A DNA stretch of 39,492 nt from Candidatus Falkowiibacteriota bacterium (GTDB taxonomy: Bacteria; Patescibacteriota; Patescibacteriia; UBA11705; JABHMO01): the NCBI GenBank assembly GCA_018693855.1, contig JABHMO010000046.1, positions 1-39,492 of the forward strand, given 5' to 3'. The position numbers and the translations under genes were made by a program. Positions within the stretch are counted from its first letter, which is position 1; the number at the start of each line of letters is the position of its first letter. Below are positions 3,183 to 33,687 of this stretch, in pieces. The notes beneath the pieces are model-generated. The model was not told the DNA's origin and did not search any database. It saw only the letters and a program-made list of their open reading frames with translations.

Positions 3183-4202
3183 ATGAATGAAGATTCTAAC
3201 AATCGAATCGTTGATCCTAATTTGGACGAACAAGAGTCAAGTTTGGACAAGACTTTACGTCCGCAAACTTTAGATGAGTTTGTTGGGCAGGATTTGATTA
3301 AAGCAAATCTAAATATTGCGATGCAAGCCGCTCGAAACCGGACAGAACCGATTGAACACGCACTTCTTTACGGTCCTCCCGGACTCGGTAAGACAACTCT
3401 GTCTCATATTATCGCAAAAGAGATGGGCGGCAATCTTCGTGTGACAACTGGCCCGGCAATTGAGAAAAGTGGAGATCTTGCCGCTATTTTAACAAATTTA
3501 GAAGATGGTGATATTTTATTTATCGATGAAATTCATCGATTAAATAGAGTTGTTGAGGAAGTTTTATATTCTGCAATGGAGGATTTTGTTTTAGATATCG
3601 TAATTGGGAAAGGTCCATCTGCTAGAACTCTTCGTTTGGATGTGCCAAGGTTTACATTGCTTGGAGCAACAACGAAAATTTCAAAAGTCTCCTCCCCTCT
3701 TCGTGATCGGTTTGGTCACCATTTTAATTTAGAGTTTTACGAAGACGATCATATTAAACAGATTGTAAAAAGAGCTTCAACTATCCTGAATGTTTCAATC
3801 GAAGACGACTGCTCAGCGGAAATTGCGAAACGAGCAAGACGAACACCGCGTATTGCAAATCGGATTTTGAAACGAGTGCGTGATTTTGCGGAAGTGAAAA
3901 ATAATAGCCTAATTGATAATAACGTTGTTCATGAAACATTAAAAATGTTGGACATCGATCATCTAGGATTAGACTCTGTCGATCGAAAAATACTTTTAAC
4001 CATCGTTGATAAATTCCAGGGTGGTCCAGTTGGATTAAACACAATAGCTGCAGCAACCAACGAAGAGATGGATGCAGTCGAAGATGTTTACGAACCATTT
4101 CTATTGCAACTCGGTTTTCTAAACAGAACCAGCCGCGGCCGAATCGTAACCAACCAGGCCTACAAACATTTAAACCGCAAAAAAGACGGCGCTTTGTTGT
4201 GA
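3183..4202 (+). CDS. ruvB: Holliday junction branch migration helicase RuvB
   Basis: [54 protein letters not shown]-terminal winged helix. Confidence 0.97.
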
Positions 4203-7375: not shown

Positions 7376-7418
7376 TGGCGCGCCATTCGTAGCCTCATGA
7401 AATAGAAGCGAAGAATGG
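7376..7418 (-). repeat. tRNA-tail hairpin element, copy 2 (starts at CCA of tRNA-Lys)
   Basis: Minus strand CCATTCTTCGCTTCTATTTCATGAGGCTACGAATGGCGCGCCA. Confidence 0.85.
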
Positions 7419-22255: not shown

Positions 22256-23044
22256 CTAAGACCGTTTTTTTACTGTATTTTCTCCTTGTTTCCAGGCAAG
22301 TTCAAATAATCCTTTAAGAATATTAGACAATGCCTCACTTTCAATCATAACACCCATAAGATTAGGCTTTTTTAGCAACGCCATTACAACTTTGTTTTCG
22401 TAGACATTGATTTCCCCTCCGAATTCTTTAATTCCTTGCAGCTTTTCCGGTTTAATCCATCGATATGTTGTGTATTTAAGTGATCCGTGATAGTTTTTCA
22501 TCCAGTTTCTGGCTTTTGGGGTATCAAGGATTAAAACGCGTTCTTTAACTTTTTGCGCACTTCTTTTCTTGTTATATTCTTTTCCCCATTTTTGTAATTC
22601 TTCTGTGTCCCAACCTTCAATGTCTAAAATGGATAACACCTCTTCTTGTGATTCTAGTGTTTTTGAAAAAATTGATTTTAATCCTTCTATTCCTTCTTGA
22701 TATTTTATCGTTGGTTTGTCCGCAAATTTGTACAGTGAAACTAAATCTGGCAACTTGTCTTCTGCGTCTTTTAATTTTCGTTCCCAGGCGTTCTTTTTGT
22801 TTTGAATAAATTGTATGAGTCGTTGCGGATGTTCAGCTGTGAAACGAATTTTTGTTCCTTGACCTGAAACTCGGTTAACAAGACCTTGAATACTTAGTTT
22901 TTCTAAAAGTTGGTAGCCGAAAGTTCGAGCGATCCCTGCTCTTTTTGTTATTTGACTAACCGTTGAAGGACCAAGTTCGAGTAGTGCTTGGTAAACTTTT
23001 GCTTCATTTTTATCAAGTCCAAGATTGTCAGTTAGATTTTTCAT
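22256..23044 (-). CDS. TrmB-family transcriptional regulator
   Basis: LGLDKNEAKVYQALLELGPSTVSQITKRAGIARTFGYQLLEKL. Confidence 0.88.
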   Translation of the reverse strand: MKNLTDNLGLDKNEAKVYQALLELGPSTVSQITKRAGIARTFGYQLLEKLSIQGLVNRVSGQGTKIRFTAEHPQRLIQFIQNKKNAWERKLKDAEDKLPDLVSLYKFADKPTIKYQEGIEGLKSIFSKTLESQEEVLSILDIEGWDTEELQKWGKEYNKKRSAQKVKERVLILDTPKARNWMKNYHGSLKYTTYRWIKPEKLQGIKEFGGEINVYENKVVMALLKKPNLMGVMIESEALSNILKGLFELAWKQGENTVKKRS

Positions 23045-24175: not shown

Positions 24176-25036
24176 ATGACGCAAGAACAGATAAATAAAT
24201 TTTTAGATTACTTGAAACGAATAAAAAACCGTAGTGATAAGACTGTGGCTAATTATAAATTTTATTTGGAACGTTTTTCTGATTGGTTTAATAGCTCTAG
24301 TGTTAAGAAATTGGAGAAAATTAAAGAAAAACAGATTGTAGAATATAAAGAATGGTTGAAAAAACGGAAACCTCGATTGAGTAAGGAAACTCGTAATTAT
24401 CACCTGATTGCATTGAGAAATATGCTTAAGTATTTAGCTAGAAATGGTACGAACTGCCTATATTATAATAAGATAAAACTCTTCAAAACAAAAAAGAAAC
24501 CAATTGAAATAGTTGAAATGTCAGAGCTTGCTAGGTTTCTAGAGTCTCCCCTAGAGGTAGATTCTTCGAAAGTGATAAAAGCTCGAGATAAAGCAGTTTT
24601 AGAGGTTCTAATCTGTACTGGCTTGAAAGTGTCAGAGCTTGCTCGGTTAGAAATAAAAGGTTTTTTACCTAAGTCAGGTTCTCTGGTTGGTCACTCCAAG
24701 CTGGGCAAGCGAAAGTTTGCACTTTCTAATCAGGCAATTCATTGGGTCAAAGAGTACTTAAGTGCAAGAAACGACAGTCTCCCCTATTTATTTATAAGTC
24801 ATGATAAAGGAACCTCAAGTCGTACAATTAACAAAAAACAAAAAGGATTATCTCCTCGTAGTCTTGAAAGAATTGTGAAAAAGTATCAGCAAGCTGCAGG
24901 AATCTCAAAAACAATTACTCCCAATTTGCTTAGGCATTACTACGCGAAACGCTTAATCATGAAGGGTGAACATATTGATTTAATAAAACAAAAACTAGGA
25001 AACGTGGCTGATAATTCAATAGAACAGTACAAATAA
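24176..25036 (+). CDS. Tyrosine recombinase (XerC/D-like) with degenerate active site
   Basis: N-terminal SAM-like core-binding domain; CTGLKVSELARL and TPNLLRHYYAKRLI...KLGNVADNSIEQYK. Confidence 0.85.
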   Translation: MTQEQINKFLDYLKRIKNRSDKTVANYKFYLERFSDWFNSSSVKKLEKIKEKQIVEYKEWLKKRKPRLSKETRNYHLIALRNMLKYLARNGTNCLYYNKIKLFKTKKKPIEIVEMSELARFLESPLEVDSSKVIKARDKAVLEVLICTGLKVSELARLEIKGFLPKSGSLVGHSKLGKRKFALSNQAIHWVKEYLSARNDSLPYLFISHDKGTSSRTINKKQKGLSPRSLERIVKKYQQAAGISKTITPNLLRHYYAKRLIMKGEHIDLIKQKLGNVADNSIEQYK

Positions 25037-25037
25037 C

Positions 25038-25066
25038 TTGAAAAATAATATATATTCCAGTATAAT
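25038..25066 (+). promoter_or_regulatory. Promoter of ncRNA A
   Basis: TTGAAA-17-TATAAT. Confidence 0.8.
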
Positions 25067-25072
25067 TTAATC

Positions 25073-25309
25073 GTGTTCGAAAAGCTGCATTTGCCTCGAA
25101 GCGATCCCTTCTTTTCCGAGTGTGTTTTTTCAAGCTTTCACGACATCCCATTCTCTCCCGCCCAATATCGTTCCCGCGATATTCTCCGCTGGATTTCAGG
25201 ACTCTTCCCGATCGACGACTAGCCTGCATGTGAGTCCACCGAGTTTGCAGCTTTCTCGGTGGGCACTAAATTCAACATCCGATCAGCGCACCTTGTTGAT
25301 CGGATTTTT
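25073..25309 (+). ncRNA. Structured ncRNA A (putative pseudoknot)
   Basis: Promoter, AAAGCTGCA (25081) complementary to hairpin loop TGCAGCTTT (25246-25254), terminator ATCCGATCA...TTGATCGGATTTTT. Confidence 0.75.
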
Positions 25310-25367
25310 GTTTTAAATGGGATTTGTGATAATTTAATACTAATTCAGCTAACAAATGTACGTAAAC

Positions 25368-25396
25368 TTGAAAAAGTTCGTGAATTGCAATACAAT
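25368..25396 (+). promoter_or_regulatory. Promoter of ncRNA B
   Basis: TTGAAA-17-TACAAT. Confidence 0.75.
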
Positions 25397-25402
25397 GATA
25401 TC

Positions 25403-25617
25403 AACCTGAGCTAAAGCTGCTCTGCTAGCATCCCCTCTTTCGATGGCAAGGTCTTGTCTTTCATTTCTTCCCTCCGAACTGCCGGGCTTGTTCAATCGAG
25501 GCTTTGGCTCCTCAACCACAGCATAGCTTTCACAAACGGGCTTCACCGATTTTGCAGCTTATTCGGTGAGCCTCGACCACAATGCTCTGTTTCCACTATT
25601 GGCGACAGAGCTTTTTT
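25403..25617 (+). ncRNA. Structured ncRNA B, paralog of ncRNA A
   Basis: Shares AAAGCTGC...ATCCC.TCTTT, AGCTTTCAC and CACCGA.TTTGCAGCTT..TCGGTG; terminator GCTCTG...CAGAGCTTTTTT. Confidence 0.75.
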
Positions 25618-25723
25618 ATTGACAATCTCATTGAAATTTAGTATTATTTGACTACATTTTGCAGTAAATGGCCTAATTGGCTTTATGTAAAGGTCAAGTC
25701 ATATATTGGAAGATGTTGTCTTT

Positions 25724-25811: not shown

Positions 25812-25886
25812 GCCCCCGTAGTTCAACGGATAGAACACCAGCCTTCTAAGCTGGATACGTAGGTTCGACTCCTGCCGGGGGTACCA
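25812..25886 (+). tRNA. tRNA-Arg (anticodon TCT)
   Basis: GCCCCCG acceptor, CCAGC-CTTCTAA-GCTGG anticodon arm, encoded CCA. Confidence 0.95.
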
Positions 25887-26036
25887 TTCTTCGCTCCTGT
25901 TACACGGAGCTACGAATGGCACGCCAGTTATGCGAAGAATGTCCTTTGTAGCTTACGTTAGTAAAAGCGCAAAAGGACCACTGTTAGTCGATTCTCTTCG
26001 CTTTTGTTCTGAAGAACTACGAATGGCACGCCATAT
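25884..26036 (+). repeat. tRNA-tail hairpin elements, cluster of three (copies 4a-4c)
   Basis: CCATTCTTCGCTCC...GGAGCTACGAATGGCACGCCA; GTCCTTTGTAGCTTACGTTAGTAAAAGCGCAAAAGGAC; third partial copy. Confidence 0.85.
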
Positions 26037-27537: not shown

Positions 27538-28371
27538 TTATTTAATGTTTTTACTAGTCCAAGCAAGTTCAAAAATCATTCTCATCATGTCGGCTACTGT
27601 TTTTTCTTCGATAATAACACTGATAAGGACATCTTTCTGAAAATTTATTATAGAAACTTTGTTTTCTCCGTAAATCGTAATATCACAATTAAATGGAAAA
27701 TTTTCTTTTGGAATATATTTTGTCTTTGGAATGAATTTTTTTTCAATCCCAACGTAAACTTGTTTGTCGTATGTTTCGCTGAATTGTGCGTCAGGAAAAA
27801 GTGCTCTCGTTGTAATTTTGTTTTTTTGTTTTTTTCTTATGTATTTTGACACAAATTCCCTTGGCAAGGAGGGAATTAAGGCCTCAACGTTGCTTACGCC
27901 AAGCATTTCGTAGGGCTTCTCTTGAGAAACATGATCTTCGTATACGTCAAGCACTCCCTTAATTCCTTCAAAATATCTTACGCGCGGTTTATGTGGAACT
28001 AGGTTAAATAAACCTTCAATTTCTGGAAGGATCATTTTTGCTTTTTGTTCAGCCTCTTTGGCTCGACGAATCTGCATTTTTGTATAATTAATCAATTTTT
28101 TTGGTGGTTCAACCTGATAGCAACGCTTGCCTTTTTGTTCGCTTTCAGTCACAAGTCCCTTGACTGCGAGATCTGTTAGAATGTGATAAACAGTTGTTCT
28201 ATTTAATTTTGTGGTGGCTGCTATTTTAGAAGGAAAAGCTCTGCCAAATTCTAGTACTGCCGCATATACTAATGCGGCTTTTTTTGATAGTCCTATACTT
28301 AGTAGCTCTTTTGTTAATTTCTCATTATTGTCCATATAAATAATTGTATTACATTCTTGTTGTTTTGTCAA
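27538..28371 (-). CDS. TrmB-family transcriptional regulator
   Basis: LGRAFPSKIAATTKLNRTTVYHILTDLAVKGLV; similar layout to 22256-23044. Confidence 0.88.
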   Translation of the reverse strand: MTKQQECNTIIYMDNNEKLTKELLSIGLSKKAALVYAAVLEFGRAFPSKIAATTKLNRTTVYHILTDLAVKGLVTESEQKGKRCYQVEPPKKLINYTKMQIRRAKEAEQKAKMILPEIEGLFNLVPHKPRVRYFEGIKGVLDVYEDHVSQEKPYEMLGVSNVEALIPSLPREFVSKYIRKKQKNKITTRALFPDAQFSETYDKQVYVGIEKKFIPKTKYIPKENFPFNCDITIYGENKVSIINFQKDVLISVIIEEKTVADMMRMIFELAWTSKNIK

Positions 28372-33384: not shown

Positions 33385-33515
33385 CAGAGCAAACTAGAAC
33401 CCTTGGCGATTTTAAATTACTCTGTGTTTTTGTTACGTGTTACGTGATTCGTGTTACGTGACTAATATGTGGACAAATCCTGTTCAACCCAACTAAACTA
33501 CGCTATAATAAAAAT

Positions 33516-33687
33516 ACCAAGCTATTGTTTTCACCCCTTCACTAATATCACCGAGGAAAAGGGAAAATGGGTGACTAGGCAAAAGCACAATTAAATAGCA
33601 AGTCGCTGAAAAACCTCATCCTTCACGGATGTCAGCGACGCGCACAATAATGGACGTTAGCTTCACGAGCCGACGTTCGTTTTTTTT
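33516..33687 (+). ncRNA. Candidate structured ncRNA, class not recognised
   Basis: TATAAT at 33504; closing helix GCTATT/AATAGC; hairpin GTCGCTGA...TCAGCGAC; terminator GGACGTTAGCT-tcacg-AGCCGACGTTCGTTTTTTTT. Confidence 0.65.

Follow-up and report, generated by a model that had tools for sequence, protein, structure and literature searches.

A tandem pair of predicted small RNA genes between a xer-type gene and tRNA-Arg(UCU) in a Candidatus Falkowiibacteriota bacterium

Two neighboring units on the + strand of a contig from a Candidatus Falkowiibacteriota bacterium, here termed RNA A (25038-25315) and RNA B (25368-25617), each extend from a promoter to a terminator and are probable non-coding RNA genes, whose transcription we infer from these signals. 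The most likely reading, although a tentative one, is that they encode sibling base-pairing small RNAs that would act in trans. Judged from sequence, they probably represent a new family of a known kind of RNA. The window, that is, the whole stretch of 39,492 nucleotides that was analyzed, is one contig of a host genome of 0.995 Mb (92.9% complete).

RNA A is located directly downstream of a Xer-type tyrosine recombinase gene (24176-25036, + strand; Pfam PF00589/PF02899). Its sigma-70-type promoter, TTGAAA-17-TATAAT (25038-25066), matches the consensus at 11 of 12 positions, and the RNA of about 240 nt is predicted to span 25073-25315. Near its 5' end it carries the motif AAAGCTGCA (25081-25089), complementary to the loop at 25246-25254, followed by the CU-rich tract ATCCCTTCTTT (25104-25114), the UCCC of which is mostly unpaired (probability 0.86), a 3' hairpin of 8 bp with the loop TTTGCAGCTTT (25236-25262), and an intrinsic terminator (25277-25305). 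RNA B is organized in the same manner, with the sigma-70-type promoter TTGAAA-17-TACAAT (25368-25396; 10 of 12 consensus matches), a predicted RNA of about 215 nt (25403-25617), the 5' motif AAAGCTGC (25413-25420), seven nucleotides of which are complementary to the loop at 25554-25560, the partly paired CU-rich tract ATCCCCTCTTT (25430-25440), a 3' hairpin of 7 bp with the loop region TTTTGCAGCTTAT (25543-25569), and an intrinsic terminator (25584-25611) followed by a T-run. A reading made from the sequence alone, hereafter the sequence-only reading, had proposed two + strand units with their own promoters and terminators, and all four elements were located. In the surrounding 3-kb region 14 promoter-like sites were counted where 7.5 are expected and seven terminators where 2.1 are expected, so that the signals around A and B are more than noise. 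Thus, at the sequence level, each unit has an independent promoter and an intrinsic terminator and lacks a frame with a convincing coding signal, which supports the proposed gene anatomy. The bodies of A and B form GC islands of about 50% (in 200-nt steps), compared with 37% for the window, and are G-poor, with C and U more frequent than G and A. A further candidate promoter, TTGACA-17-TATTAT (25619-25647, + strand), lies between RNA B and tRNA-Arg(UCU) (25812-25886, + strand) and probably serves the tRNA.

The two units share a hairpin block (25237-25264 in A and 25544-25571 in B) that is 86% identical over 28 nt, and its Smith-Waterman score of 36 was equaled by none of 1000 pairs of dinucleotide shuffles, in agreement with the hairpin that the sequence-only reading had assigned to both RNAs. 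The surroundings of the -35 element, AACTTGAAAAA, are identical over 11 nt. The motif AAAGCTGC, previously described as common to both 5' ends, is indeed present in each unit (25081 in A and 25413 in B), 43 and 45 nt, respectively, from the -35 element, and is followed in both by ATCCC(C/T)TCTTT; taken alone, however, AAAGCTGC plus ATCCC(C/T)TCTTT is weak, since the combined score has a P of 0.11 against shuffles, and it carries conviction only through its collinearity with the -35 stretch and the hairpin. By contrast, AGCTTTCAC, which had also been put forward as a shared block, does not hold up as a homologous one, as it is matched by 59% of shuffles and occupies non-equivalent positions, far from the hairpin in A (25133-25141) and close to it in B (25525-25533); as far as can be told, it is common to both sequences by chance. 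The hairpin, the -35 stretch and the collinear 5' motifs together support paralogy, and it was therefore concluded from the sequences that a whole promoter-to-terminator unit was duplicated and subsequently diverged strongly. The resulting arrangement, in which homologous neighbors each carry a promoter and a terminator of their own, is that of tandem sibling small RNAs.

Folding of the + strand is more stable than that of shuffled sequences (z of -2.54 for A and -3.20 for B), while the - strand gives weaker values (-0.66 and -1.91 for the respective regions), supporting structure on the + strand. The complementarity between loop and 5' motif that had been noted earlier was borne out at lengths of 9 nt (A) and 7 nt (B): the fraction of dinucleotide shuffles reaching such loop complementarity within the first 30 nt is 0.0002 for A and 0.021 for B, two probabilities that are not independent because A and B are paralogs. 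The proposed compensatory change in the hairpin stem stands for one pair, the outermost, which changes from C-G to U-A and is the sole such change, but the innermost G-C pair of A is lost as U-U in B. In the unconstrained ensemble the hairpin loop is free (unpaired probability 0.93 in A and 0.95 in B), and the 5' motif is mostly engaged in local pairs (unpaired 0.17 and 0.23, respectively). Freeing both partners of the pseudoknot costs 6.1 kcal/mol in A and 7.9 kcal/mol in B, and the duplexes gain -12.8 and -11.6 kcal/mol, values from which the pseudoknot penalty is excluded; by this simple estimate, with a penalty assumed, the pseudoknot would be roughly balanced in energy in A and questionable in B. 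Moreover, the 5' end of B competes for a different 11-bp helix, and TCGAGGCT of B (25496-25503) is the 8-nt complement of 25569-25576, with which it could form an 8-bp helix enclosing the 3' hairpin. The long-range pseudoknot suggested by the sequence-only reading is thus plausible and non-random in A, but it rests on two paralogs and competes with local 5' structure, and it may represent one of two states of the folded RNA.

The Rfam check that the sequence-only reading had called for, having failed to recognize the class, was run with Rfam 15 at gathering and relaxed thresholds and placed no family on A or B; the best sub-threshold match was that of the terminator of B to PyrG_leader (22.6 bits, threshold 65). 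BLAST of A against 93 genomes of its own kin returned, besides A itself, only short AT-rich matches resembling chance, and the pattern AAAGCTGC-N-TTTGCAGCTT had two further candidate matches among 381 genomes of the class (in G125 and G043). A model of the hairpin, R1, was searched in 286 genomes of the class and 380 of the phylum, two overlapping samples, and scored 41 bits for its own two copies and at most 24 bits for all others. The latter were rejected as homologs, as each of them falls within an open frame (112 to 918 codons long); one of the R1 matches, at L145, has a 9-nt upstream complement and sits in an MreB-like gene. Among 85,462 species the hairpin pattern had 27 matches, by estimate roughly the number expected by chance, and AAGCTGC was found in the 300 nt upstream of none of them. 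A single match in the IMG/VR viral contigs was likewise rejected, so that these gave no homolog, and there was no match to RNA A in plasmids or to RNA B in phages. A third copy at sites of AAGCTGCAAA was also discarded, the intergenic one (L137) being the terminator of another gene. Since no homolog was found in these searches, which covered four relatives from the family and five from the order, the A/B sequence seems restricted to the genus or a narrower group. The absence of homologs beyond this genome, which the sequence-only reading had listed as counting against it, was indeed observed within the collections searched; it makes the RNA appear confined to one lineage and does not disprove it.

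The slot between xer and tRNA-Arg(UCU), which forms its downstream border, is syntenic in the order and found more widely than the RNAs themselves. The product of the xer gene matches the NCBIfam XerD, XerA and XerC models below their cut-offs, a protein search of the genome contigs yielded no named relative of it, and homologs with about 38-43% identity occur in 9/9 order relatives. Because xer homologs span the order, the slot does not resemble a mobile element. The gene is followed by tRNA-Arg(UCU) within about 1 kb in G001, G002, G003, G004, G006, G007 and G008, with no unit in between in G002, G003 and G007 and with small possible ORFs, seen by eye, in G006 and G008. The slot of G001 (L043, 2341-2470) contains one promoter/terminator unit of about 100 nt that carries an SD (AGGAG) and the frame MTSPEFTARR of 10 codons, whose stop lies within the terminator. 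In G004 (L056, G004:C44, about 3460-3775) it contains three short tandem small-RNA-like units, each with the usual build of a small RNA: a hairpin at the 5' end, a CU-rich tract free of pairing (ACCUUCC, ACCUCCUUUC and GUUCCUC, respectively) and a terminator. Their z values are -4.5, -3.6 and -3.2; a promoter was called in two of these units, and none matches Rfam. The tract of the middle unit, also given as ACCTCCTTTC, matches the well-known anti-SD end of 16S rRNA. In a scan of units across approximately 356 kb of fetched DNA, whose loci are not a random sample, the slot units ranked near the top of the non-coding ones in C content. No sequence likeness of the G004 and G001 units to A and B was detectable, and what they have in common is position and style.

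Some other features of the window were recorded. TrmB-type HTH regulators flank the region on both sides (22256-23044 and 27538-28371, both - strand), and a promoter-like/terminator-like unit of approximately 180 nt without a long ORF lies 3' of a 91-aa ORF (33470-33678, + strand). At 25884-25920 a hairpin opens with the CCA of the tRNA itself (CCATTC...GAATGG), and a CCA-initiated hairpin also follows tRNA-Lys(CUU) on the - strand near position 7400. G003 (CCATAAAGT...ACTTTATGG, twice) and G004 (CCATGAACC...GGTTCATGG) show this arrangement too, with stems of different sequence, and it is absent from many other tRNAs scanned.

If A and B are sibling small RNAs, the loop of the 3' hairpin, UUUGCAGCUU, would pair with the 5' end, AAAGCUGC, within each largely structured RNA, and exposed CU-rich (UCCC) stretches would base-pair with target RNAs in trans and without Hfq, such that the pairing of 5' end and loop could close the fold or gate the pairing with the target. 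The common motif might also let A pair with B. RNA A has five UCCC motifs (shuffle P about 0.02), three of which are mostly unpaired (probability 0.86-1.00); B has neither an enrichment of UCCC nor such a set of unpaired copies. Hfq was not found in the host genome, with positive results in 5/14 control genomes. A general preference for translation starts was not supported: for pairing with the start regions of genes in the window, shuffled sequences were as good in 33/40 and 29/40 cases for the two RNAs, an SD-like motif precedes the start codon of only 6/36 called genes (starts chosen automatically), and the complement of the conserved tract, AAAGARGGGAT, occurs elsewhere in the genome mostly inside genes and not at starts. 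Anti-SD targeting was rejected as a general mode, given the negative duplex test on the genes of the window and the location of the exact tract sites.

The main rival holds that A and B bind a protein, with the 3' hairpin and the 5' motif forming the recognized fold and the twin copies titrating or guiding that protein. The best-conserved block is the hairpin, whose 86% identity over 28 nt exceeds what a pure pairing stem would need, and the lack of Hfq in the genome and of support for start-region targeting points in the same direction; however, the region offers no associated protein gene, its neighbors being an order-wide xer-type gene and tRNAs, and the complementarity of loop and 5' end can be explained without a protein, so that this reading is considered unlikely. 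Rather unlikely, too, is a more far-reaching proposal, according to which A and B would be the founding members of a novel class of structured RNAs in candidate-phyla bacteria. The hallmark of this class would be a switch formed by long-range pairing of the 5' AAAGCUGC with the conserved 3' hairpin loop, and the slot between xer and tRNA-Arg(UCU) would be a site where tandem small RNA genes are acquired again and again. It would be more surprising still if the complementary segments served intermolecular kissing, by which A and B, or each with itself, would dimerize and one would act as a sponge or brake of the other: the cross pairs (5' end of A with the loop of B, and the reverse) comprise about 8 nt, compared with 9 and 7 nt in cis, but such cross-complementarity arises automatically once a unit with cis pairing is duplicated.

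That the units are not RNA genes at all, and instead are short protein genes in antisense or else spurious sequence, appears very improbable. Open frames of 90 aa (25229-24957, over A) and 65 aa (25546-25349, over B) do exist on the - strand, the three blocks common to A and B are read in the same frame there, and the codon score of the B frame lies above that of base shuffles (P 0.009). Yet the score of the A frame equals that of shuffles (P 0.53), this frame runs antisense into xer without a Pfam match, no - strand promoter-like site precedes either frame whereas the + strand promoters and terminators are good, and the + strand folds more strongly. On the + strand the frames have poor codon scores except for one of 51 codons (0.01), which passes through the terminator of A into B. 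Protein coding was thus provisionally rejected for both strands on the basis of codon scores and the missing - strand promoter-like sites. Least probable of all is that the units control the downstream tRNA genes in cis, as leaders or attenuators. The units lie directly upstream of tRNA-Arg(UCU) on the same strand, and 7 nt in the anticodon arm of this tRNA are complementary to the loop of B, but this match is weak, each unit is ended by its own terminator, the promoter at 25619-25647 intervenes between B and the tRNA, and in G003 and G007 the tRNA occurs with no comparable unit.

Sibling small RNAs acting in trans remain the preferred reading, and together with the slot units of the related genus A and B provide a concrete place to seek RNA regulation in reduced genomes; the finding alone does not settle a long-standing question. 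The context for such regulation is a host without detectable Hfq and with few SD motifs. A search of open-access full texts yielded no work clearly devoted to small RNAs in these bacteria, which is weak evidence.

Several known RNAs invite comparison. Helix P4 of RNase P RNA joins a 5' segment to a remote 3' one, and A and B offer a comparable pairing, although Rfam assigns them to neither RNase P nor another family. To our knowledge, no pairing between loop and 5' end is known in the LhrC small RNAs. These RNAs, LhrC1-5 of Listeria monocytogenes, are multicopy, G-poor and equipped with redundant UCCC motifs, and RsaE is named as another UCCC-type small RNA (PMC4132741). They have been shown to pair at the start region of a target (PMC4132741), whereas start-region pairing is unsupported for A and B, whose host seldom uses SD-like motifs. 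A and B are also longer (about 240 and 215 nt) and without an Rfam match. The sibling small RNAs of Neisseria (PMC5362039, PMC9973317) likewise form a related pair, but they belong to another organism, and Hfq was not found in the present host. With LhrC, A and B share the existence of several related copies, a G-poor composition, and UCCC or CU-rich motifs, partly unpaired in the case of A.
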